This document shows positions 41,549 to 57,708 of a stretch of 64,000 nucleotides of DNA, in pieces. Origin of the DNA: Fabrea salina (Eukaryota > Ciliophora > Heterotrichea > Heterotrichida > Fabreidae); NCBI GenBank assembly GCA_022984795.1, contig JALIHJ010000055.1, forward strand, positions 114,978-178,977. The letters run 5' to 3'. The translations under genes and the position numbers were made by a program. The notes under the pieces are model-generated. The model saw only the letters and a list, made by a program, of their open reading frames with translations, was not told the origin of the DNA and ran no database searches. Numbering within the stretch: position 1 is the stretch's first letter; the number at the start of each line of letters is the position of its first letter.

Positions 41549-44500
41549 ATGTTTTCTTCTTTGGTGATAGTGTTTGTGCTAAGCAATGCTGCTCAAATAG
41601 ACACTATGGCCACTCCTTACAAAGGCAAGCAGGACCCAGACTCATTCTATGGTCTCAGTAGTATGTTTTTTAGTGGAACTTTTGATGATTTAGACATTTT
41701 CCACTACAACACCACAATTGGAACGGAAACCTGCGAAATACTCTCTTTGAGTCAAACTCAGCTCGAGTGCTTGATTCCTCCGTGGGACTCTAGTGACGGG
41801 ACTAGTACTGAACTGAGAGTTGAGCACAATGGCTCTGAAATATACTCGAAGAATCTTAACTATGGCAATGCCTACCCCATCATTACCTTCAACAGAAATG
41901 AAGCCTCAGCTGGGGATGATTTTAATGTTTACCCGCTTTGGAGTGGCAGTGATCGAATTCAGAACGGTTCTGTGGAAAGTGAGGCTTTGACAGTTAAGTC
42001 AGAGTGGAATTGGTGGCATTTTTATGTGGGAAAGACCCAACTTGGAAACAATATCCACGGAGACTCCAGTATTAGACTTGAGGTGGATAGAATTGGAAAG
42101 GTTGATATGCTTTGGACAGGAGCCAGCTACACACTCCAAGGAGAAGAGTACTTCTTTAGAACTATTGCCTGTGTAGAAAGCATTTCTCATAGCCAAGGAG
42201 ACCCTTTAGGAGGCTTAGAAATAAATATTACAGGGAAGTCCTTTCTTAGTGACACTAGCAGAATCAGGGTGGAAATAGATGGAAGTGAGTGTGAGGTAGC
42301 CAGTGCTAGTTTTAGTAGTATAACTTGCATAGCTGGTCCTTACTACAAGACCACTCTACAAAGTTACTATGAAGGAAGTGCTGGGCTCTTTTCTCAGAGA
42401 TATGATCACGGCACTAGGGACCTTCAGAGGGAAAAATATGTTCCTAACACTGGCTTAGAGTATGACCAGCCTGCTGGTGACACGATTGTTTATGGGTACT
42501 TCAAAGCTCCAAGAACAGGAGAATATATTTTCTACCCTAGTGTGGATGATAATGTTATAATCAGACTAAGTACCGATGAATATCCATCAAATAAGGAGGA
42601 CATTTCTACAAATCCGGGATGGTCCTTTCCTCTTGCTTATTTCGGTAGTGAATCGAAGAAGGTGTCACTGTTTAAAGACCAGCTTTATTACTTTGAAATG
42701 GAGCAGATTAATACTGCTGGTCCTGGACAGTTCTCGTTAGGAGTGAGAATTCCGGGTGATGGGAATTCCTATAGAAACAGAATGCCTCTGGTTAAGAAGA
42801 TAAACATTACTAGTTTGCATAGTTATGCTCCTATTGAGTACAAGGGTCACGCAAAAACTGTAGGGAGTTTGAACTGTATAGATGATATGGGGAACTACCA
42901 CCAAAAGCAATTGGGTTCACAGTATTTCAATCTTTATGCTTATTGCTTACATAACTACTTATATGTAGTAGTGCCCGGGTACATGGATCCTCAACCAGAA
43001 GACTTGAAGTTCAGGGACGCTAATGGCAATACAGTAGACGGAGAACTCCTTCACCAGCCCTCGGACTCTCAATTCTGGTTTGTGATCCCTTCTGACTTCT
43101 TAAGAACATACGAAACCAAGCCTCAACTCAGGATCTGGATAGACGACAGACTAGCTATGTGCACAGGGGATTGTTCTTTTGAGTACAAGAATGTGCCTGT
43201 AATAAGAGGCTTCTCTCAGAGTTCCAATACAGTGAGGATTACTGGTGGAAACTTTCCAACAGACAAACTGAGAGTCAGAATAGGACCATCTGACTGCATA
43301 GTCAGCTCCAACTCCGCAACCTTCATAGAGTGCCAGTTAGACTCCTACACCCAAGGAAGCTACCAACCCCAAGTGACTTACAACAGCTACTACAATGTAT
43401 CACTAGATTCAAGCATTAGTGACTACATTTCGCTAGTTTGTGCTAACAACTGCTTAAGGTGTTACTCGCCTTCAATGTACGACTGTGTAGAGTGTGAGAG
43501 TGGATACTACTTAGTTCAAGGAGTGTGTAGTGGAGTATGTCCCAGTAATTACACTTGCTCAGAAACTAGTTCTGCAGTTGACTCCTCTGACTTTATATTC
43601 CACCTAAACCCTACTGGAATAGAGGACATTGTGACTGACACCCAGTCTTTTGTTGCAGTGCTCACAGGAGAAGACAACCAGTTCTACCCTTACTATGGGG
43701 AGTTCGATCCTTACGCCGCTAAAGACAGGGGTTACTATTTTAGAGGGTCATCTTACATGCAGTCACTTAACTCCAGTTTGGTTATTTCTCCTTCCTTTAG
43801 CATTTCTGCTTGGGTTAGACCACTAGAAGAGTCAGGCAGTCTTCTTTCTAAAGGCCAATTAAAGTTATCCCTAGAAAACTACTTGCCTAGGGTAGAGCTG
43901 CAACTGGGTTCTAAAGGGGTGTCCTTTCTGGGTCCTCCTCTAGACTCTGAGGGCTGGAACTTAGTAGGGGTCAAGACTTACATTGAGTCAAAGCAGTACA
44001 AAGTAGAAGTCTGGACCAACTCTACCAAGACTCTAAATGCAACAACTGGGTTCTTCCAGGACAGCTCTTCTGAGTTACTGATAGGAGGAGTAGGGTTTAA
44101 GGGGTTCCTGTGGGATTTTAAGATTTATAACTCGGCTAGAGAAACCTTACTAGAAACTGAATGTTTTGCTTGCAGTCATTGTCCCCTGGAACTAGAAGGA
44201 GTTTGCTTGCCTAACTGTGAAATAAACTTTTACTGGGATGGAGATCAGTGCAGGGAGTGCTTGTCTAGTTGTTACTTGGGCTGTGTAAACAACTCTACTT
44301 GTAGTTTGTGTGGAAATGACTTGTGTGTGGACTGCAGCTTTGAAGAGTGTAGTAGCTGTGTAGACAATGCTTCAGTGAAGAGCAACACCTGTAAGTGCAA
44401 CCAAGGATACTCTGCCAAATACGGACTCTGTCAAAGACAACTATTCTATTCTAACTTAACTGCAGCAGAAGACAACACTCTGACTCTAACCTTCTCAGAA

Positions 44501-45940
44501 ACTCCTACTTCCCAACTAACACCAACTGACTACAGCATCTATCTACAAAACAAGTCAATTGAGTTCAGCTACTCAAAGAGGGATGACTACAAGTTTGAGC
44601 TCAGCTTCCAGTCCTACGTTTCTGAAGGAGAACTGGCCTACTTAGAGTTCACGGATGCTTCTGGAGTAGTTAGTGAGGCCAACTCTATTCTGGAGGACAA
44701 AGTACTGCAAGTCCAACTCTACGAGTATGATCCTTCAGCTGAAGAAGCCAAACAAGCTGAAAGTCAAGCTCAAACTACAGCCTCTGCAGCAACAGCAATA
44801 TCTGGAATTTCAGCCCTGTTCAATTCCAATCCTTCAGGACTGTGGGCTACTATGAACACAATCCAGATACTGACCTACATTCCTCTGACTACCAACCCAC
44901 TCACTCCTAGAACCAGAGGATTCTTCAAAGGGCTCAATACATTGAAAAGCATGATTCCCAGTGCCTTTGACTTGTTTAACTTCGAAAGCAGGCCTAACCC
45001 CAACTACTACTCCAAAGACTACGGGTATGAGTCTTACTTGTTTCTGGAAAACTCGGGAAAAGACTTGACTGTACTCATGTTTCTACTAGCTCTGTGGCCT
45101 GTGATCTTGCTGCTCTCTAAAATACCCAAGATCGAAGGAGTCTGTGAAAAACTGCTGGCCAAGTACAAGTACGGAGTCCTTATTCGGTTTTGGATTCAAA
45201 CTTACTTGGACTTGGTTATCTCTTGCTTCATTCAGCTCTACTTAGTAGACTCAATAGCAATAGAAGTGGTCAGCAACTTCATTCTGGCAGTTGTAGTGGG
45301 GGTACTTCTAGCAGTCACTCCAGGTGCAATAGTAGTCTTTTGCAGAAAGAACCAAACTACAATCAAGGAATCGCAACAAGAGTCAGAGGAACCACAAGAA
45401 TCAGAGACCTACAAACGCTACAAGTCACTACTTGATGAATTCGACTGCACAGAGAGATTCGAAGCTAGTTACACCTACGCTTTGTTCACTCTCGTGAGAC
45501 TGCTGCTAGGAGTCAGTCTCATTCTACTGACAAACTTTCCCTACACACAAGCCACCATCAACACTGTTCTGGTGGCTGTGTTTGCTGTGTTTCTGTTAGT
45601 AGTGAGGCCCTACAAAGACAAACTCCAGCAACTAGTCTCCGTGGTTGTAGAAACAGGAGTGTTTGTCGTCTACTCAGTTGTGATGTACTTTCTGAGTGAC
45701 CTGAGAGGCAAACAAAAAGCAGAGGAAGCAGTCATCTACTTAACTTATGCACTCATTGGACTACGAACTCTCTTTGTTGCTGTAAGTGCACTCCAAAGCA
45801 TAGTCAAGTTCATCAAAAAGAAGTGCCAAAAGACCCAAGTAGTCCCAGAAATAGTTGAAACCCAGTTCCAGAACACCTTTGAAAATCAAGTAGACAACTC
45901 ACTTTTTGCCAAGACCCACCAAGTCCAGAGTCCTAGTTAG
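41549..45940 (+). CDS. Large surface protein: IPT/TIG, PA14, LamG-like, Cys-rich and polytopic membrane region
   Basis: This 1463-residue protein has a signal peptide (about 1-15), then IPT/TIG-like beta domains (first near 30-110, second near 212-280, third near 545-625). A PA14-type module (about 275-430, with VYGYFKAPRTGEYIFYPSVD) lies between. Next are a furin-like Cys segment (about 630-670) and a LamG-like domain (about 690-870, FSISAWVRPLEESG and the GYYFRGSSYM entry), then more Cys-rich repeats to about 970. The C-terminal 300 residues hold about seven membrane helices (for example LTVLMFLLALWPVILLLSKI and INTVLVAVFAVFLLVVRPY). It resembles fibrocystin-like and ciliate adhesion proteins. 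Function could be adhesion or mechanosensing; this is inference. Confidence 0.75.
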   Translation: MFSSLVIVFVLSNAAQIDTMATPYKGKQDPDSFYGLSSMFFSGTFDDLDIFHYNTTIGTETCEILSLSQTQLECLIPPWDSSDGTSTELRVEHNGSEIYSKNLNYGNAYPIITFNRNEASAGDDFNVYPLWSGSDRIQNGSVESEALTVKSEWNWWHFYVGKTQLGNNIHGDSSIRLEVDRIGKVDMLWTGASYTLQGEEYFFRTIACVESISHSQGDPLGGLEINITGKSFLSDTSRIRVEIDGSECEVASASFSSITCIAGPYYKTTLQSYYEGSAGLFSQRYDHGTRDLQREKYVPNTGLEYDQPAGDTIVYGYFKAPRTGEYIFYPSVDDNVIIRLSTDEYPSNKEDISTNPGWSFPLAYFGSESKKVSLFKDQLYYFEMEQINTAGPGQFSLGVRIPGDGNSYRNRMPLVKKINITSLHSYAPIEYKGHAKTVGSLNCIDDMGNYHQKQLGSQYFNLYAYCLHNYLYVVVPGYMDPQPEDLKFRDANGNTVDGELLHQPSDSQFWFVIPSDFLRTYETKPQLRIWIDDRLAMCTGDCSFEYKNVPVIRGFSQSSNTVRITGGNFPTDKLRVRIGPSDCIVSSNSATFIECQLDSYTQGSYQPQVTYNSYYNVSLDSSISDYISLVCANNCLRCYSPSMYDCVECESGYYLVQGVCSGVCPSNYTCSETSSAVDSSDFIFHLNPTGIEDIVTDTQSFVAVLTGEDNQFYPYYGEFDPYAAKDRGYYFRGSSYMQSLNSSLVISPSFSISAWVRPLEESGSLLSKGQLKLSLENYLPRVELQLGSKGVSFLGPPLDSEGWNLVGVKTYIESKQYKVEVWTNSTKTLNATTGFFQDSSSELLIGGVGFKGFLWDFKIYNSARETLLETECFACSHCPLELEGVCLPNCEINFYWDGDQCRECLSSCYLGCVNNSTCSLCGNDLCVDCSFEECSSCVDNASVKSNTCKCNQGYSAKYGLCQRQLFYSNLTAAEDNTLTLTFSETPTSQLTPTDYSIYLQNKSIEFSYSKRDDYKFELSFQSYVSEGELAYLEFTDASGVVSEANSILEDKVLQVQLYEYDPSAEEAKQAESQAQTTASAATAISGISALFNSNPSGLWATMNTIQILTYIPLTTNPLTPRTRGFFKGLNTLKSMIPSAFDLFNFESRPNPNYYSKDYGYESYLFLENSGKDLTVLMFLLALWPVILLLSKIPKIEGVCEKLLAKYKYGVLIRFWIQTYLDLVISCFIQLYLVDSIAIEVVSNFILAVVVGVLLAVTPGAIVVFCRKNQTTIKESQQESEEPQESETYKRYKSLLDEFDCTERFEASYTYALFTLVRLLLGVSLILLTNFPYTQATINTVLVAVFAVFLLVVRPYKDKLQQLVSVVVETGVFVVYSVVMYFLSDLRGKQKAEEAVIYLTYALIGLRTLFVAVSALQSIVKFIKKKCQKTQVVPEIVETQFQNTFENQVDNSLFAKTHQVQSPS

Positions 45941-47221
45941 CTTTTAATAAATCCAGGATTATTAACCTATTATCAAGATCATACTATAGAGCTAGTTCCT
46001 CACTAGTGAAGGTCATCTTAGTATATTTTCTAGGATGATTTTGATAAGGGCGTTAACAATTTTGTTAGTCTTAGAATTTGCCAGCACTTGTGACACCTTG
46101 TGTAACCGCTGCCAAACTGCTAATTGGGTCTGCCAAAGTGGATCATGCAATTCTGGAACCGAAGTGGACAGCATATGCTTGAGAAACTGCCCTTACGTTT
46201 TGGATCTCCTTGCACCTTTACCAGTGGAGTTGTTTTAGAAGAAACTGTCAATAGGTTTGATCTAACTCACTTCCAAAGTGGATCGGATTCAAGTACTTAC
46301 TTTCCCTTTAATAACCATCGACACTGGAGGAAGTAATGGAAACGACGGGATGACTTTGAAACTAGAAAACTCTGTTGGAAATGAGACTAGCGAAAGGTTA
46401 ACTTTTACTTTTGGTATAAGCCACTGGCACTACGCTGCCTTCACTTGCGAATTCTTCAGTTCGCATGGAACTACTCTTAAAAGGTATTTAGATGGAGCTA
46501 CCTCACAAATCAGCACCAGTGTTGATAAAATTTCCAGGCACCCAGCAGGACACCACATTCAAGTAGGAGGGTTCGAATGCGCAGCCCTTACTTACAAGAT
46601 AAGGATTTTTCAGGAAGTCGACAGCACCCTAATTGGAAATGATGACATATGCAACGACTCTTTTCTGGAGAGTGTTTATGGAACTGCAACTACGGTCAAT
46701 ACCAGGACCGAACCACGTGCCTAGCTTGTAATGCTTCTTGCGATAAAGGTTGTGTAAGTCCAAGTGATTGCTCTTTGCTTCCTGAAAACTGCGATGCTTC
46801 GAGTAGCTTGAATATAGATGACTGCAAAGATTGCTCCTCAAACTATTACTTAACAGAAGGCATATGTCTAGAGTCCTGTCCAACCGGCTTTAGCCAAGGT
46901 TCAGAAACCTGTGACCTTTCTGACTCCTTTGCGTTTCACCTGAAACTCGGTAAAGTCATTTCTGACATAGTTTATGACGAAAGAAATTCAATCCCAGTTT
47001 TAACACCCTAAGATAACAGTTTTTACCCTAACTACTACGCCAGTGACCCAGTAGCTGGAGGAGAAAGGGGGTACTACTTCAATGGAGTGTCTTCTTAGAT
47101 GCAACTACCTCCTTATGACAACGACAATCACAAGGAGTTAGTAATAGCTCCTAAGTTCACTATGGTTTTTTGGACTATGCCCAAAACAGCTGGAGGAGTT
47201 TTGTTTGAAAAAACAGATATC

Positions 47222-47237
47222 AATGACCTGACTAATT
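47222..47237 (+). repeat. Target-site duplication, left copy (16 bp)
   Basis: AATGACCTGACTAATT, identical to the copy at 48166-48181. Flanks the insertion in the pseudogene. Confidence 0.85.
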
Positions 47238-47241
47238 AAAA

Positions 47242-47460
47242 ATGGAAAATCGGGAAACAATTTCGAATACAAGCGTTATCGAGAATGCTGATTCGAAGAC
47301 CCAAGTCCTGGATTTAATCCAAGACGTGGCTTATGTGGCCCCTGAAGGTAGACACTTGATAGGGGACCCGAATTTCCTAACAATAGATAGACAAGTCAAC
47401 ACTGAAGTATCACATCAAAAAAATAACGGATCAAATGATGTGCTCAGAATCATCAGATGA
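47242..47460 (+). CDS. Insertion ORF1, 72 residues, unknown
   Basis: The ATG starts 4 nt from the element's left edge and the frame stops at TGA. The product begins MENRETISNTSVIENADSKT and continues with LDLIQDVAYVAPEGRHLIGD and a polar C-terminus. No domain recognised. Its last 26 nt overlap ORF2, which is in the +1 frame. It has no stop or frameshift, so the copy looks recent or constrained. Whether it is translated is unknown. Confidence 0.5.
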   Translation: MENRETISNTSVIENADSKTQVLDLIQDVAYVAPEGRHLIGDPNFLTIDRQVNTEVSHQKNNGSNDVLRIIR

Positions 47461-48157
47461 CGAAAGCACAGAAAGGCCAAAAGGCTGCGATTACTTCGCT
47501 AACTTCCTAGACACCTTAAGAAAATACAGGAGCCTCCGGCGCTCTGTAACCTTAACTGAAGAGGAGCAATACTCAGACGACCAATGGAGCGAAGACTCAG
47601 ACTTCGAGGAGAACTCAGACTCAGATATAGATTCTTACTTAAGCTGGGAAGAAGACACAGACCTAGACTCAGAAGAAGACTCGGACCTGGAAGTACTCCT
47701 AGAGCTAAATACGGAAGAGAACCCGGACGAAGACATGGAGCTCGCAACAAAAAATCCACAAAGAAAGACAAAGGAAACTCTCACTGAAAAAAGCAAAGAA
47801 GACAAATTGCTCGATGCAATCATGAGAAACCTGGACGATGAAGAACCAATTCTGGACAGAAAGGAAAAAGAACCAGGAGAAAACAATAAAAGCAGCACAC
47901 CCAGCGTAACAAGAGCAACGAAAACAACCTTCGAAGAAACAAGACTGGACACAAGAAAACAAAGAAGGAAGCTCTCACAAAAACAGAAAGAACCACAACT
48001 ACCCAGAAGCACAAAAATAGACACCAGACAAACAACAAACACAAAAAACACAAACGACTGTGCCTGGAAGAAGAGGAAATGCAAGCGAAACAAAGGACCC
48101 GCAAAGCAAACCCCTCTCACTGTAACTCTAAAAAGGCCCAAGGGCTTGATAACATAA
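47435..48157 (+). CDS. Insertion ORF2, 240 residues, acidic N-terminus and basic C-terminus, unknown
   Basis: The frame opens at tandem ATGs (47435, 47438) inside the end of ORF1. Residues about 15-35 have a small helical patch (CDYFANFLDTLRKYRSLRR). Residues 40-105 are a highly acidic repeat-like stretch (SDFEENSDSDIDSYLSWEED). The second half is Lys/Arg/Thr-rich with two cysteines (CAWKKRKCKRNKG). Acid-to-base polarity recalls nucleic-acid-packaging or Gag-like proteins, but no zinc knuckle or enzyme motif is seen. Stop at TAA is 8 nt before the element's right edge. Function not recognised. Confidence 0.5.
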   Translation: MMCSESSDDESTERPKGCDYFANFLDTLRKYRSLRRSVTLTEEEQYSDDQWSEDSDFEENSDSDIDSYLSWEEDTDLDSEEDSDLEVLLELNTEENPDEDMELATKNPQRKTKETLTEKSKEDKLLDAIMRNLDDEEPILDRKEKEPGENNKSSTPSVTRATKTTFEETRLDTRKQRRKLSQKQKEPQLPRSTKIDTRQTTNTKNTNDCAWKKRKCKRNKGPAKQTPLTVTLKRPKGLIT

Positions 48158-48165
48158 CAAATAAA

Positions 48166-48181
48166 AATGACCTGACTAATT
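48166..48181 (+). repeat. Target-site duplication, right copy (16 bp)
   Basis: AATGACCTGACTAATT, perfect match to 47222-47237; the pseudogene reading resumes directly after it. Confidence 0.85.
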
Positions 48182-49570
48182 GCTACATCAGACTAGAAAT
48201 ATATACAGACCAACTAGAAGTGCGTCTTGGGCACTTTATACCAGCTGGTTAATATTGTAACCCTTGATCAGTGGAGCTTCCTAGTTTTCAGATCTTACGT
48301 GGAGTATTCTAACTACAAAATCTCTTTTTCAGTTAATGGAAACTCTGCAGTCAAGAACCTTGGCAACTACTTTTACAAAGACTCCACTGACCAATACGCT
48401 TGCAACATCGGGGCTATTATAATTCAGCTTCTTCAAGAGGGTTATTTTTCCATGGCTTTTTGTGGGAGTTCAGGATCTACACTGACTATGACCCTTCAGG
48501 CCTTCCGCAAACCTCTAGTTGCGCAGGGGGTGCACTTACTGTCCAAATAACAACTCAGAGCAATGCTTGCCTACTTGCAGTATGAACGAGTATTGGAATG
48601 ATGACTCATGCAAGCCTTGCCATACAATTGTGGGTTGTGTTAGGGGTGATATTTCTTGTAACCTTTGTAATGATCAGTTATGCAAAACCTGTGAAGACCC
48701 TTTTACTTGTCAGTCTTGTATTGACAATGCCTCTTCTGGAATTCAGCTACAGAGGCTTGTGAATATGAGCCTACCCAAGAAGAACCCACAGAAACACAAG
48801 AACCAGCTGAATTACTTGAATCTGATGAAGAAATTGAAGGTTTAGTCCAGGGAGGAGCAATAGGGTCGATAGCAGTTGGGGCAACAGTTTCGTTGCTACC
48901 CTTCAGGTCTCTGGCTGATTATCATTTTTTTCTGGTATTGAAAGAGTAGTAGTCAATAACATAATTGCTGCAGTAGTTGTTGCTGGCTTACTTATAGCTA
49001 CTCTACAGCAATAAGTATTTTCTTTTACAGAAAAAAAGACCAACTAGAGTCCATAACTGAGGAATCTACTGTTTACAAGAAATACGGACTTTGTTTTACA
49101 AACTGAAGTACAAAGACGAGTTCAAGGCTTGCTTCACCTATGTTTTCTTCACTTTGCAAAGACTTTTATTTGGTATTCTTAGGAAACTATCCTTATTTGC
49201 AAGCTTCTATAAACTGCGCAGTGATGCTGTTTTTCGAGGCTTTACTGTGGTAGTGAGGCCTTATGAAGACAAGACTATGAGGTTGTTTCGATGCTTGTGG
49301 AATCAGGAACTTTTATAATATTCCTAGCAGTCATTTACTTCTTGAAAAGTGACCCAAAAGACTACCAAGGAGCGGTTGAAGCTGTAGTCATTTACTCAGC
49401 ATTCGGAGTGACTGCGTTAAGGATGCTAAGTGTGTTTTTGAAGCGTTACTGTTGTTGAGACCAGCAACTACCAACAGACCATTGATCACACTCCAAGCTG
49501 GATTCTGAGCTCAGACTACCCTGTTTTTGCCCGGATTAAGAAGCAACTCCAGAACCCAAAGTTAACCTAA

Positions 49571-50740: not shown

Positions 50741-51110
50741 TTAAATTCGAAAAGAAAACTCGATAGCGACAGTGCACAACTGAGAAGGATGACCAAAAAG
50801 ATGCTGCGGGAAATCCGGAAAGTTATTTGGAAAATTTATGCAAGCCACATGTGCCTTTGTCTGGGGTTTTAGGAGTTGACTGACTAGGTCTTTTTTCCTT
50901 TTGAGTTCTGGTTGTGTTTCTTCGTGGTTGGGAATTTGGTTGTTTTGTTTCTTCGTATGCAGTCTTTCTTGGTGGCATTGATGCAGTTCTTGGCTTCTCT
51001 GTCTTTTGCATAGTGGATGCATTCGGCTGCTTCTTCCTGTTCAGGCCATGTGGAATTGGGGTTAATTCTGTGTTGTGATGAAACGTTTGCTTTTTGAGTC
51101 GCTGTGTCTG
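50741..51110 (-). pseudogene. Degraded A/C-rich coding relic, compositionally like the inserted element
   Basis: On the minus strand all three frames stay open for 60-90 codons here (for example one containing MPPRKTAYEETKQPNSQP, another CIHYAKDREAKNCINATKKD). The Lys/Thr/Gln-rich, multi-frame-open character and the KT(F/Y)EET peptide resemble ORF2 of the insertion at 47.2-48.2 kb (TKTTFEETR). The similarity is weak and read by eye, and no boundaries or direct repeats were found. It could instead be a different decayed gene. Confidence 0.35.
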
Positions 51111-51657: not shown

Positions 51658-54600
51658 ATGGCGTTTATAATGTTATTTTTCTTGGTTTTGTGCCTTGAAA
51701 TCAAAGGGCTATTCGCTAACTATGAAGCCAAAAGAGTCACCCTGCAAGGAACTGACGCCTCGGGCAAAGGAATTGCGACCCGTGTGGACTTTGAGAACGA
51801 ATTAACTGACCCGGTAGTTATCGCCAATGTTGCTAGTATTGAAAGCGAAAACCCTGTGACTTGCAGAATATCTAACTTAACCTCTACTGGGTTTAACCTG
51901 ATGTTAGAACCCACTGGCAATCAAACTGAAAGAGAAAACCATCCACCTGAAGACGTTTGTTATTTCGCAGTGGACCTCAATCAATTGCCTGCTGTCATGG
52001 ACGGTGGAAAACTGGAATTGGGAGCAGCTGAGTGGACTAATGTGACATTTAACTCTTCTTTTCAAAATGATCCTGCTATTCTGGCCTTCGTTCAAACCAA
52101 CAACAATGAGTATGTAAACGTCAGGATTAGTTTTTTTTCTTCAACTGGATTCAAAATTACCCTTGACGACCTTAGTCAGGATGGTATGAGTAATGACGTA
52201 ATTGGCCAACCAGAAGTTGTAGGGTGGGTAGCTATTCCTCAAGGAATTCATAGTTCTGAAATAAAAGCTCAAGCCAAGATTAGCTTTTCTAACTATGATT
52301 TATCAGTAAAACCTGATGGATTTTTTGACAAGGAAGACGTGTTTGTTGCTGCTGTTATGACGTATCAAGACGACCATGGATCATACGTGAGAGGGTACAG
52401 CTCTAGTGAAAATGAAGGTTTCAGATTAAGGACAGAAGAAAGTAGAATTGCTAACGACGAACAATTCTATCCACTTGAAGGCATTTCATGGATAGCATTC
52501 CACAGTTGCTGTTATGTTTATGAATTCTTACAAAGTTACTGTCCAAGTGGGTTCTCCAAGGAATCATCCGAGTGCACCAAGCAACTAAGTCCTGTGTTCC
52601 AACTGGCTTTCAACCGAATAAACGACACCATTGAAGAAGAAGCCCAAGGAATCAGGATTTCTACTGGAGAAGACTCTTCTTTCTACCCTGATTACAAAGG
52701 AACTGATCCATGGCCTGCTTACAAAAGAGGCTATTATTTTTCAAATGGTTTATACATGAGTTTCCCCGATGCTTCCGAAGCTGAGTTTACTTTTGCACCT
52801 TACTTTACGATAACTGCTTGGGTGCGTGTCCATTGGTCTGGAACCTTCATTACAAAAAAATCTAACTCCCAGGACTACTTAGCATTCGGAACAGTAGAGG
52901 AACCTCCTAAACTGAAACTGAAACTAAGACTTAAGGACAACACAAATTTCGAATTTACTTCTAGTACAGGTATTGATTATTTTGAGTGGAAATTTGTCTG
53001 GGCAAAAGTATTCACGGACTCTACCCTCAAAGCTGAGCTGGGACTCAATCTGGCTACTGAATTGAAGTCTATTGAAAACTCTTGGTTTTCTGACGTAAAA
53101 GAAGACTACACAATAATCATTGGAAGTGAGGCGGATTCTGGTTCAATCGAAAATAAATTCAACGGATTCTTATATGAAATAAGAATATACAACGAAAACT
53201 TTGACGCTGCTACCCTAGTTACAGAAGCATGCTCTGAAGATTGTGGAGTATGTCCTAGCGACGGGAACTGCATTCCTTCCTGCAGCCCAACTGCATTCTG
53301 GACAGGAGATGAATTTGACTCTTGTGGAATGTGCGATATGTATTGCTTTAAAACGTGCACAAGATCAGAGGACTGCAACTTATGCGTAGATCAACTTTGT
53401 GAAGTATGCATTGATTTCGAAATTTGCTCAAGTTGCACACAAAACGCTACACTGCAAGCAGGAACTTGCGAATGTAATTCAGGCCACTTCCAGGAAAAAG
53501 ATGTTTGCTCTCCGTGTATCACTGGTTGCGCCAACTGCAATAACTCTACTACTTGTTTGGAGTGCTCAGACGGCTACGTATTACTTGAGGGAGTTTGTTA
53601 TGACAAGTGTACACTTTGCAGTAACTGTGATGCGGATAAAAACTGTTTGGAATGTGTGGAGAGCGCTGCAAAGAACGAAGATGGACTCTGCCAGTGTGTT
53701 AATAACTCCACTCTAACTGGTGAAAACTGTGTGTGTAATGATGGGCTCTTAGCTGTACAAGGAGGTTGCTATGCGGACTGCGAAAGCCTTTGTGGAAATT
53801 GTGATTATCCTAACCAAGAATGTCTGGAATGCGCCAAAAACGCTACGAAGAATGCACAAGGAACATGTGAATGTGTTAAGAACTCCACTCTAATTGGTGA
53901 AAACTGTGTGTGCGATGATGGACTCTTAGCTGTACAAGGAGGTTGCTACGCAGACTGCGAAAGCCTTTGCAAAGACTGTGACTACTCTAACCTAGAATGC
54001 CTCAAATGCGTAGACAACGGTGCAAAGAATGCAGAAGGAGTTTGTGAGTGTTCAGAAGGCTTTGAAATTGGTAGTTCAGGAGACGCTTGCTACCCAGAGT
54101 GCAATGACTTGTGCTTAAATTGCTTAGATGGAAAATGCACTCAATGCGCATCTCTTTCTGAGCTAAAATCCCAAAACACTTGTGCATGTGTAGACAATGC
54201 TTCCCAACAACAAGGTGCTTCACAGTGCACTTGCAACTCGGGTTATGAAGCTGTCTCTGGCAACTGTGTATCGTGCCAAGTTTACTTCCAGCCTTCAGAG
54301 GTTTCAGCTCACTTTTCTGAGAAGTACACCAAGATCCTGGTTGGGTTCAGTGCAGAGTCATCTACTAGTTTCTCGAGTTGTCAGTACTTGATTGACGAGT
54401 CTTCTCTGGAGAAACTGGGGCAGAACCCCAAGTGCACTTGGGAGAACTCTACTATGTTGGTGGTGAGTCTGGGCTCTAACTTCACTATCCGCAACGAAGC
54501 CCTGAAACTGAATGCCTTCAACATCCTTAAAAAGGAAGGAGAGTGTTCCTTCGACTACTCCGACTTAGAACCAGTGGCTGAGTACAAGTACCCAGTGCCT

Positions 54601-57600
54601 ACTCCTTCAGCCAAGCTTTCAGCTCCTTACTCCTACAGCATTCCTTGTGCCACCAAGTCACTGCAAGTATCAGCAGAGAAGTCAACTGGAAGAGCTGGTG
54701 GGTCTCTTAGTTATGATTGGAGTCAGTTGAGTGGCCCTTCCAACATCGACTTGTCTTCTCAGACTGAGAGTGTTCTTAGCATTCCCAAAACTCAGCTTTC
54801 AGAAGGAGACTACACTTTCAAGGTGTCCATATCAAACACTTTTGATCGCTCAGACTCAGCAGAGATTTCAGTGAAGGCTAAGGAAGCAGAGGCCTTGTCA
54901 GTGCAGATTGATGCTGGCAGCCAAATCTCAATCAAGAGTGGAGACTCTCTTAAAGTCAAAGCCTATGTTGAGAGTTTCTGTGGAAAGAGTTCTTCAGTCC
55001 AGTATGCTTGGAACTATGAAGGACTCAGCAGTGAAGGAGAAGCACCTGGAAACCCTAGTGCAGTCATTGGCAACTCTAGGCAGTCACACGTCCTCATAAT
55101 AAAAGAAGGCGATCTCCAAGCAGGCTATACTTATGTGTTCAAGGCCACTGCTCACGAAGGAGAGAGTCAGGGAGAAGCCTTTTTGTACGTGACTGTTGAA
55201 AGCTCTCCTCTGGTAGCTGTGCTTAAAAAGACTGACGGACAGATCTCCAACGGAAAAGACCTGAGACTGGATGCCAGTGAGTCCTACGACCCAGACAACT
55301 CGCAAGGTTCACTGGAGTTTGAGTGGACTTGCACTGAACCTGGCAAAGACTTCTGTGAAAGCACTTCTGGAGAGCAGTTACTAGACACCCAACAAACCGG
55401 GTCTATGCTACAAATTGAGTCTGAGGAACTAAGACCTGGAGCCTTCTACTACTTCTGCGTGAAGGTTTCCAAGGACACCAGAGAAGACCAGAAGTGTGTG
55501 GAACTAGAAGTAGTAGAAAGGGGCGACAAGGAGATCAAGGTACCTAAACCTCTTTTCAAGATCAATTACTTGTGGGAACTCTTGGTTCTACTTTCAGTCC
55601 AAGGCTCCCTCGAAGACAATGTGCAGTGGACCCAAGTGCTAGGACCCAGCCTTACTCCTACAACTCCTTTAAACAACCCCTACATCTACTTCCCTCCTGA
55701 GTCAATGACTTCAGGTTCTTACTACTCCTGGCAAGCAACCCTTTCTAGTTCAACAGGCTCACTCACCACCACTATTTCCTGGAACACTAATGTAGGACCT
55801 TCATGTTTAGGAGGCTTGGAAATGAGTCCTTCTGCAGGTTCTGCTCTTTCCACTGACTTTGAGTTAAGCATTACTGACTGCTTTGACGGTGACGAAGAAG
55901 ACTACCCCTTATTCTACTCCTTTGGACTCATGTGGCATGGCTTCTACATTCCCTTGGCTCCTCCTAGACTCTCCAACAAAGTGACTACTAAGTTGCTGCC
56001 TGGCACTAACACCCTTTTTGCCATGGTGTGTGACTCAATGCGGAGTTGCGAGTACTACAAACAGTCCTTCACCATAGGTTCAGTATCTACAAGAAGATTA
56101 GAGGAGAAGTCTGTGTCCCAAACCTTCTTGGAAGATGTTAAGTACCCCGAACTCATTCCTGGCACTGTACTTATGTACTGTGAGAGTCTTGAACTAGAAC
56201 AAGAAGCCATTACAACCATGCTGTCTAAACTCAAAGAGTTCTCTCAGGGCCTAGAGGAGGTTGAAAAATCCACCTACAGCAACATCATTGGGGCGATTTC
56301 AGCCATGATAAGTGAAGAAAACACCAACGAATCTCAAACTCTGGAACTAGTAGACCTGGCTTTGTCCATGCTGGACTTTGAACTAGAAATACTCCAAGAA
56401 GACACTGAACTACTCATGGACAGTGCAAAAAGCCTGATTGAAAAGTTCAACTTAAACAACAAAGTACTCAAGAAGAGCCAAGAACTCATCAGCAAAGTGT
56501 TCAACAAGTACTCCAAAAACTCCACTCCTGGAGATCAGCCTAGAAGCATTGAACTGAAAAACGTCACCACATATAGAATGACTGAAAGACTTGAAAATTT
56601 CAAGAACACTACTTTCAGCATTTTTGACTCCAATATAACTCTTCCAGAATCACTCCCTTTCTCCGACAGCGATGTTGTAGACATGGAAGTAACTACCTAC
56701 AGCCAAGCAGGTAATTACTCAGACATTGTTGACTTAAGTTTCTTCAAAGCAGGAACTTACTCTGGCTTTGAGTTAAGTCTCCAAGACAGGTCTCTTTACT
56801 CCCTTAGCAACTTAACTGAGCCCATTACTGTTGAAATTCCTTTCCATGACGTCAGTGTTGAAAACTGGAGCTGTGCATACCTAAAAGACGAAGAGTGGGT
56901 ACAAGAAGGCTGTGAAGTCATAGAAGTCAACAACAACTCAGCCATTATTAATACAACTCACACCTCAATTTTCAGTTTACAACCTAAAAAAGTAGAGTCA
57001 GTGGTACCAACAGAAGAAATTGAGCCAGAAACTTCTGATAGTGGATGCTCCCGCAGTTACATTCCTTTGTACTTGATGTCAGGAGTACTAGCAATTGGAG
57101 TTTCATTAACAATTACTTGGATAATGTTGGACAAGAAAGTTGTGCAAAGCAATTCAGCAAAAGAGGTCTATGAAACTGAAAAAGAGTACGAAGCTTTAGC
57201 AAGAGTGAGTTCGAAAGAAACACCTGAAATTGTAGAAACTCCCAAGTCTTCAAGCACTAAAATATTCCTGGAGAATCACTTAACTTTGAGTTTGTTCTTT
57301 AGCAAAGAAAAAGCATTTTCTTTAGCTTACTTGACAGCAGAGTATATGATTTTGGGAGGACTAATCGGAGTGTTTACATGGATTATGAGAGACACTGACT
57401 CAGAAGACAAAGAAAGCGACGAGTTTAGCATGGAAGAAGTCTATATTGTTTTGATAGCCTCAGGGATCACTTTGCTTGTGATTGGGGTTTGTGAAATACT
57501 TAATAAGATACTGGCTGGCTTTTTTAAACTCGCAACTGTACTAGTTGCAGCTGCATTGGGCTTAGCTTGCTTCTTACTCAGCGGCTACTTATGCTCAGAA

Positions 57601-57708
57601 TTCTGTGCAGTTTGGAGTGTCCTTTGGACTTATTCCTTCTTGTTAGGAGTGGCTCTAGAAGTGTTGTTTTCTCAATCTTTAAGAGCTCTTATCAAAAGAT
57701 TCTTTTAA
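51658..57708 (+). CDS. Giant surface protein: H-type lectin-like, LamG, Cys-rich, REJ/PKD and GPS-like region, polytopic end
   Basis: This 2016-residue protein has a signal peptide (about 1-20), then beta-sandwich segments with the pattern of H-type lectins (VTFNSSFQNDPAILAF, about 110-205). A LamG-like domain follows (about 310-520, SFYPDYKGTDPWPAYKRGYYF). Cys-rich repeats (about 525-880) include a near-perfect 59-residue duplication. REJ/PKD-like segments follow (about 960-1300, for example SLSYDWSQLSGPSNIDLSSQ), then a helical region (about 1510-1640). A GPS-like end (WSCAYLKDEEWVQEGC ... THTSIFSL, about 1740-1771) lacks the usual C-x-C. Five or so membrane helices follow (first about 1801-1825). 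The order matches polycystin-1/REJ proteins without a PLAT domain. A role in adhesion or mating recognition is plausible. Confidence 0.72.
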   Translation: MAFIMLFFLVLCLEIKGLFANYEAKRVTLQGTDASGKGIATRVDFENELTDPVVIANVASIESENPVTCRISNLTSTGFNLMLEPTGNQTERENHPPEDVCYFAVDLNQLPAVMDGGKLELGAAEWTNVTFNSSFQNDPAILAFVQTNNNEYVNVRISFFSSTGFKITLDDLSQDGMSNDVIGQPEVVGWVAIPQGIHSSEIKAQAKISFSNYDLSVKPDGFFDKEDVFVAAVMTYQDDHGSYVRGYSSSENEGFRLRTEESRIANDEQFYPLEGISWIAFHSCCYVYEFLQSYCPSGFSKESSECTKQLSPVFQLAFNRINDTIEEEAQGIRISTGEDSSFYPDYKGTDPWPAYKRGYYFSNGLYMSFPDASEAEFTFAPYFTITAWVRVHWSGTFITKKSNSQDYLAFGTVEEPPKLKLKLRLKDNTNFEFTSSTGIDYFEWKFVWAKVFTDSTLKAELGLNLATELKSIENSWFSDVKEDYTIIIGSEADSGSIENKFNGFLYEIRIYNENFDAATLVTEACSEDCGVCPSDGNCIPSCSPTAFWTGDEFDSCGMCDMYCFKTCTRSEDCNLCVDQLCEVCIDFEICSSCTQNATLQAGTCECNSGHFQEKDVCSPCITGCANCNNSTTCLECSDGYVLLEGVCYDKCTLCSNCDADKNCLECVESAAKNEDGLCQCVNNSTLTGENCVCNDGLLAVQGGCYADCESLCGNCDYPNQECLECAKNATKNAQGTCECVKNSTLIGENCVCDDGLLAVQGGCYADCESLCKDCDYSNLECLKCVDNGAKNAEGVCECSEGFEIGSSGDACYPECNDLCLNCLDGKCTQCASLSELKSQNTCACVDNASQQQGASQCTCNSGYEAVSGNCVSCQVYFQPSEVSAHFSEKYTKILVGFSAESSTSFSSCQYLIDESSLEKLGQNPKCTWENSTMLVVSLGSNFTIRNEALKLNAFNILKKEGECSFDYSDLEPVAEYKYPVPTPSAKLSAPYSYSIPCATKSLQVSAEKSTGRAGGSLSYDWSQLSGPSNIDLSSQTESVLSIPKTQLSEGDYTFKVSISNTFDRSDSAEISVKAKEAEALSVQIDAGSQISIKSGDSLKVKAYVESFCGKSSSVQYAWNYEGLSSEGEAPGNPSAVIGNSRQSHVLIIKEGDLQAGYTYVFKATAHEGESQGEAFLYVTVESSPLVAVLKKTDGQISNGKDLRLDASESYDPDNSQGSLEFEWTCTEPGKDFCESTSGEQLLDTQQTGSMLQIESEELRPGAFYYFCVKVSKDTREDQKCVELEVVERGDKEIKVPKPLFKINYLWELLVLLSVQGSLEDNVQWTQVLGPSLTPTTPLNNPYIYFPPESMTSGSYYSWQATLSSSTGSLTTTISWNTNVGPSCLGGLEMSPSAGSALSTDFELSITDCFDGDEEDYPLFYSFGLMWHGFYIPLAPPRLSNKVTTKLLPGTNTLFAMVCDSMRSCEYYKQSFTIGSVSTRRLEEKSVSQTFLEDVKYPELIPGTVLMYCESLELEQEAITTMLSKLKEFSQGLEEVEKSTYSNIIGAISAMISEENTNESQTLELVDLALSMLDFELEILQEDTELLMDSAKSLIEKFNLNNKVLKKSQELISKVFNKYSKNSTPGDQPRSIELKNVTTYRMTERLENFKNTTFSIFDSNITLPESLPFSDSDVVDMEVTTYSQAGNYSDIVDLSFFKAGTYSGFELSLQDRSLYSLSNLTEPITVEIPFHDVSVENWSCAYLKDEEWVQEGCEVIEVNNNSAIINTTHTSIFSLQPKKVESVVPTEEIEPETSDSGCSRSYIPLYLMSGVLAIGVSLTITWIMLDKKVVQSNSAKEVYETEKEYEALARVSSKETPEIVETPKSSSTKIFLENHLTLSLFFSKEKAFSLAYLTAEYMILGGLIGVFTWIMRDTDSEDKESDEFSMEEVYIVLIASGITLLVIGVCEILNKILAGFFKLATVLVAAALGLACFLLSGYLCSEFCAVWSVLWTYSFLLGVALEVLFSQSLRALIKRFF
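53704..54057 (+). repeat. 177-bp tandem duplication inside the giant surface gene
   Basis: Copy 1 starts at 53704 and copy 2 at 53881. The first 100 nt are nearly identical (AACTCCACTCTAA.TGGTGA), the remainder diverges more. Unit length is 59 codons, so the frame is kept. Confidence 0.85.

Follow-up and report, generated by a model that had tools for sequence, protein, structure and literature searches.

Short non-autonomous retroposons that share sequence with an autonomous partner are known from trypanosomes, in which RIME is paired with ingi and NARTc with L1Tc (PMC2323293, PMC4748587). In these accounts, ingi and L1Tc are autonomous retroposons encoding one large protein, the 5' block of L1Tc is a promoter, and RIME and NARTc are small, noncoding and derived by deletion. 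Among ciliates, the solo-ORF1 elements A-G of Paramecium, described from germline DNA, contain one ORF that ends in a zinc finger and lack a reverse transcriptase (RT); in three cases they end in (TAAA)n, and their authors think that they are mobilized in trans (PMC5405496). The half-L1 elements of mammals (HAL1) are coding, non-autonomous LINE derivatives that encode the L1 ORF1p (PMC5753468). In Blepharisma, which is also a heterotrich, APE-type LINEs with Exo_endo_phos_2 and RVT_1 domains, some of them truncated, have been reported from the macronuclear genome, in descriptions whose relevant parts mention no non-autonomous LINE partner (PMC9942856, PMC9942806).

The locus analyzed here lies in a stretch of 64,000 nucleotides from Fabrea salina (contig JALIHJ010000055.1, positions 114,978 to 178,977), referred to below as the window. 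It contains an insert that is very probably a recently inserted copy of a non-autonomous, LINE-mobilized retroposon. Like RIME and NARTc, this element has an adenosine-rich end and recent near-identical copies, shares sequence with LINEs at its 3' end and may have a 5' block in common with such a LINE, whereas its 303-codon ORF and its middle region without a LINE match set it apart from those noncoding deletion derivatives; its 5' block is a putative promoter. It resembles the Paramecium elements in belonging to a ciliate and in having one ORF, no RT and, like three of them, a (TAAA)n end, and differs from them in that no zinc finger was seen, both ends are LINE-like and the assembly is apparently somatic. 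Unlike HAL1, which encodes a LINE ORF1 protein, the Fabrea element has an ORF of which only approximately the first 46 and the last 37 residues match a LINE protein. The element appears to combine traits that are known separately, namely ends like those of LINEs, one long frame and a middle unmatched in the LINEs compared.

An insertion in a decayed LamG-type gene

The features of the locus, in window coordinates and all on the + strand, are as follows.

47222..47237, +: left copy of the 16-bp target-site duplication (exact match)
47238..48165, + (sense strand): inserted element, very probably a non-autonomous retroposon (sequence, genome search, flanks, copy alignment)
47238..47378, +: 5' block resembling a LINE 5' end (C71), with the start codon (113/147 identical, C81 copy versus C71)
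47242..47460, +: ORF1 of the earlier note, 72 aa, the N-terminal part of the single ORF, shortened by a frameshift
47379..48068, +: middle region of ~690 bp without LINE match, encoding the acidic part of the protein (Pfam, LINE comparison, composition)
47383..47390, +: ATAG-ATAG, 4-nt duplication present in the window copy alone, 1 of 9 copies covering the place (copy alignment)
47435..48157, +: ORF2 of the earlier note, 240 aa, the remainder of the single ORF
48069..48165, +: 3' block resembling LINE 3' ends (C45b, C53, C2, C22), ending in GATAACATAACAAATAAA
48134..48147, +: candidate small hairpin AGGCC-CAAG-GGCTT in the RNA tail (minimum-energy fold)
48166..48181, +: right copy of the 16-bp target-site duplication (exact match)

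The sequence AATGACCTGACTAATT occurs exactly at 47222-47237 and 48166-48181 and nowhere else in the 64-kb window; with up to three mismatches allowed, there are three matches, compared to 0.76 expected from shuffles. The insert between these repeats, from base 47238 to base 48165, is exactly 928 bp long, begins with AAAAATGG and ends with ACATAACAAATAAA. Its first ATG lies four bases in from the edge, the start codon being at base 5, and its 3' edge is A-rich. No terminal inverted repeats were found, inverted matches between the 60 bases at either end being no longer than 6 bp. An earlier note, made from the window sequence alone, had described a 928-bp insertion with an exact 16-bp duplication, no inverted repeats, an ORF1 start four bases from the edge and an A-rich 3' edge, and all of this holds.

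The same note had claimed that deletion of the insert rejoins a broken LamG strand and makes the order of events clear. The first part stands for one of the three paralogous sequences tested: with the flanks and a single repeat joined, a good alignment with the paralogue at 41549-45940 spans the junction (97.8 bits), compared to 90.1 bits and an alignment that ends there when the insert is left in place. The alignment with the C51 paralogue passes over the joined junction by a few residues only, and that with the third sequence, at 51658-57708, falls short of it with or without the insert. The second part is less secure: in the joined host translation, in-frame stops occur both before and after the junction, so that the LamG-type host gene is a decayed copy whether or not the insertion is considered, and the sequence of events can be read only in part. 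A separate observation concerns two paralogous LamG-type genes, one holding the window element and the other a LINE on C51: the two sites correspond to within a few codons (DLYNTY versus NDLTNCY).

A family of recent and truncated copies

We searched the genome to which the window belongs (18.33 Mb in 103 contigs; C-numbers below denote contigs or places in it). The search for other copies that the earlier note had proposed returned 30 DNA matches to the insert, the window copy and 29 further ones, so the insert does not stand alone. Of the 29, 22 were assigned to the element, some of them short 3' ends only. Based on translations and tails, five matches (C45b, C53, C22 and two on C2) were assigned to LINE 3' ends; C71 was classified as a LINE 5' end, and C19 as a chimera that involves a second group of LINEs. 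Seven of the 30 matches span the whole element; position 927 or 928 is reached by 26, and 8 start at base 1. Seven copies have an identical start base, and most others are 5'-truncated, retaining the 3' end and a (TAAA)n tail.

The better copies form two subfamilies, C54/C81/C32/C45a and C26/C29/C92a/C92b, both of which are young: C81 and C32, located at different sites, are identical over 923 bp, and C26, C92a and C92b are identical over 752-782 bp. Relative to C26, the copies C9 and C12, near contig ends, show 3 and 5 substitutions, respectively, yet 14 and 15 small indels, which may be assembly or uncorrected read errors. The tail motif, with up to three mismatches, has 36 matches in the genome and none for the reversed control. 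A tail variant, AAGGGCTCGATAACATAACAATTAAA, recurs in subtelomeric positions, ~5-6 kb from the ends of C1, C12, C30, C47, C66, C67 and other contigs, and probably represents one old insertion spread by duplication.

Mode of insertion

Comparison of the flanks of the other copies, also proposed in the earlier note, revealed exact repeats of 11-18 bp, each with the site's own sequence, at 11 of 22 places; the left-hand repeat is at most 2 bp away from the 5' junction and the right-hand one directly follows the tail, and the TAAA units at the 3' ends run into the right-hand duplication. In the control of 462 mismatched flank pairs, 454 shared at most 10 bp and 8 shared 15-16 bp; from the flanks, these 8 appear to be the crossed repeats of C52/C35 described below. 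The controlled count of 22 places excludes C19, C71 and six tail-only places. Five of the latter, read without a control, have repeats of 16-18 bp (C12b, C83, C85), 12 bp (C22) and 8 bp (C2end); at the sixth, C2start, the tail motif did not match. The other 11 of the 22 places have no clean abutting duplication: four are crossed duplications, the repeats at C9, C12, C2m and C45b lie 25-107 bp upstream and do not abut, and those at C73 (9 bp), C20 (8 bp) and C53 (4 bp) are short or unclear.

At C52 (C52:61561-65711) and C35 (C35:196-4350), two element copies ~1.1 kb apart have crossed target duplications, such that the left repeat of one copy equals the right repeat of the other and vice versa. 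Recombination of a circle bearing one copy into a second copy would give such a pattern.

The anatomy of the copies, with variable duplications, a common 3' end with 5' truncation and a simple-repeat TAAA tail, is that of non-LTR (LINE-type) elements, and because of it we conclude that the element was inserted by target-primed reverse transcription. An RT of its own was not found, the 303-aa ORF having no Pfam match, and the element is therefore non-autonomous. The suggestion in the earlier note of a compact retroposon, or of a non-autonomous element mobilized by another enzyme, is supported by the many copies, 5' truncation, (TAAA)n tails, private duplications and LINEs with similar ends.

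Ends resembling those of LINEs

The first ~141 bp and the last ~97 bp of the element are ~77-79% identical to LINE 5' and 3' ends, respectively; the ~690-bp middle is unlike them. As in the RIME/NARTc pairs, sequence is shared at the 3' end, with 78/99 identities to C45b and 77/97 to C2, LINE copies that are themselves fragments. At the 5' end, the candidate partner is C71, with the 113/147 identities (E 3.5e-21 in the genome search), which is recognized as a LINE by a weak match and runs into telomere-like repeats. Mismatches in the shared blocks are spread over the three codon positions (12/10/12, 6/9/6 and 8/4/8), and because of this even distribution, what looks conserved in the shared ends is a DNA or RNA signal and not a protein sequence. 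The candidate hairpin is present in 4 of the 10 tails folded, that of the window included. No SINE head (tRNA, 5S or 7SL) was found, and we ruled out a SINE: the Rfam scan of 47000-48400 produced only two matches, far below the gathering scores and to unrelated families.

Candidate helper LINEs

A profile search of the genome with RVT_1 gave five matches, and one with Exo_endo_phos_2 (PF14529) a single match, in C51. The RVT_1 match on C18, judged by its sequence, looks like a telomerase RT rather than a LINE. With the C51 RT as a protein query, the genome yielded 39 matches, mostly fragments. The C51 LINE, the only complete one seen, occupies 4091 bp between 16-bp target duplications and encodes an APE endonuclease (Exo_endo_phos, E 1.5e-9) and an RT (RVT_1, E 1.3e-39). 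Its start is gag-like by eye, with a CCHC-like motif; the first 254 residues have only a sub-threshold match to a Pfam DUF. A search with its RT returned 161 proteins, and among the 120 matches listed, identities are 24-34%, which leaves the LINE clade unsettled.

The C51 LINE contains two in-frame TGA codons. Reading UGA as tryptophan would remove both stops; we rejected this solution, as 23 of the 30 long stretches that the window contains when only TAA and TAG count as stops lack TGA. In five of the other seven stretches, the TGA lies at most 23 codons from an end. Fabrea is reported to use the canonical code (PMC10553269). Repeats of CCCTAACA are present near the ends of contigs C2, C71 and C12, and this unit is the one given for Blepharisma (PMC9942806). 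Features including the canonical code and the contig-end repeats suggest that the assembly represents the macronuclear (somatic) genome of F. salina.

The tail of the C51 LINE is similar to that of the element, matching its last 97 bases at 67/86 positions only with 22 gap columns. This LINE is outside the 30 DNA matches, and by eye the 5' block is not common to it. The downstream part of C71 matches the start of the C51 LINE weakly (31.6 bits, compared to 24.3 for the best of 100 mononucleotide shuffles) and with a stop inside; when the first 254 residues of C51 were used to search the genome, C51 itself alone was retrieved, and C71 was not reported. The LINE fragments of C71 and C2 both adjoin the telomere-like repeats near contig ends. 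A single intact LINE with both matching ends was not found in the genome assembly. The presumed partner LINE family is thus pieced together, with its 5' match in C71 and its 3' matches in other fragments, and the helper may be germline-limited, lost or unassembled.

A second group of LINEs (LINE-B: C4, C20 at 128 kb, and C68) is present in the genome. A segment of ~52 bp in the window (50893-50944, - strand) is 83% identical to the 3' region of this group, and in the chimera C19 (C19:173967-176177), a 5' part like that of the element (positions 4-238) is followed by the 3' end of a LINE-B.

A single ORF with an acidic middle

The earlier note had reported two novel overlapping ORFs, a description that applies to the window copy only. 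In C81 and C32, one frame of 303 codons runs from the ATG at base 5 to a TAA, and a single frame of 291 codons is present in C26 and C29; the frames of C9 and C12 are broken at several places. The window copy appears to have two ORFs because its private 4-nt duplication shifts the frame. The two subfamilies differ in the middle region, which suggests different deletions from a longer form; such a form is still present in the older copies C52a, C35a and C48a and in the MGnify protein P0001.

Over 279 codons, with the replaced block excluded, the subfamilies show 11 synonymous and 12 non-synonymous codon differences, corresponding to dN/dS of 0.018/0.067 (0.27) by NG86 and 0.021/0.044 (0.47) by YN00. 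Among 5000 runs of a neutral simulation, 5.2% had 12 or fewer non-synonymous codons (P = 0.052), and 54% had at least one stop. This is weak evidence of selection on the ORF and suggestive only.

The 303-aa protein is rich in E, T, D, K and S, with a net charge of -14, an acidic center and a basic C-terminus, a composition from which the protein would be expected to be disordered. By eye, no zinc knuckle was seen in it. A comparison with 5.8 billion proteins identified one relative, P0001, with 65% identity over 50% of the query (753 candidates), for which there is neither a function nor a Pfam match. Correspondence with LINE proteins is limited to residues 1-46 and 267-303; for residues 47-266, comparison with 12 LINE-bearing sequences of the genome gave no match at E <= 1 save 14 residues of the chimera C19 (E 0.13). 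In this one ORF, the codons at the start and end are LINE-like, and the acidic segment between them is novel.

Origin and mobilization

Several other origins have to be weighed against a LINE-mobilized, non-autonomous retroposon. The A-rich 3' end, the target duplication and the intronless ORF would equally be expected of a processed host gene transcript pasted in by the LINE machinery, and the earlier note had listed a retrocopied transcript among its readings. However, each of the 30 genome matches to the ORF2 protein, from 46 candidates scored, falls within or overlaps a known element place, so that the source gene which that note proposed to look for does not appear as a separate locus; furthermore, both ends resemble LINE ends, and the exact start is common to seven copies. 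We therefore reject a one-off host retrocopy, which the copy number and the LINE-like ends contradict, and consider an origin from any host transcript extremely unlikely. A transposase-moved DNA element, either a MITE or an internal eliminated sequence, might come to mind because many such elements exist in ciliates (PMC9942856), but with no terminal inverted repeats, target duplications of variable length (11-18 bp), truncated 5' ends and TAAA tails, this possibility is practically nil and was rejected.

A different question is from which LINE the element derives and which one moves it. The chimera C19 would fit mobilization by LINE-B instead of the C71/C2 group, but C19 is diverged (73%) with no target duplication found around it, and the tail of the window copy resembles those of the C2, C53, C22 and C45b LINEs, whereas LINE-B tails read differently; we regard LINE-B as a very doubtful helper. 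The correspondence of both ends, and of the start and stop codons, with LINE ends would also be explained if the element were a simple internal deletion derivative of a LINE, comparable to RIME, with a middle that has diverged or comes from a LINE outside the assembly. On balance, such an origin is possible though unlikely: the middle lacks a LINE match in the genome search and a Pfam domain, and the only resemblance at E <= 1 to the LINE-bearing sequences is the short stretch of C19.

Under the retroposon interpretation that we favor, a transcript would be made from signals in the LINE-like 5' block and recognized by the LINE protein through the LINE-like 3' block. That protein would nick an AT-rich site, prime on TAAA and reverse-transcribe the element RNA; staggered cleavage of the second strand would then produce the target duplication, and incomplete copying of the RNA would account for the 5' truncations. 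We infer the promoter, the recognition of the tail and the identity of the helper; mobilization in trans by a LINE protein is presumed and does not imply that the helper is active at present. Most likely, the product of the ORF is a protein, or merely a translated frame, that aids formation of the particle on which the helper acts. A more specific proposal is that the element is a coding satellite of a LINE, with LINE-like ends, its own acidic protein taking part in mobilization and a helper present only in the germline nucleus. We put this forward as quite improbable in its entirety; if true, young copies would reach the somatic genome without an intact helper there.

Implications

The small and probably somatic genome of this ciliate appears to host a young, two-part parasite system consisting of LINEs and a coding, non-autonomous partner. 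The LINE-like ends hint at the features that the LINE machinery may recognize. Since no intact helper was found in the assembly, one can also ask whether such LINEs exist only in the germline nucleus. Finally, to judge from the acidic middle, a long frame distinct from both ORF1 and ORF2 can apparently be retained by a LINE partner.
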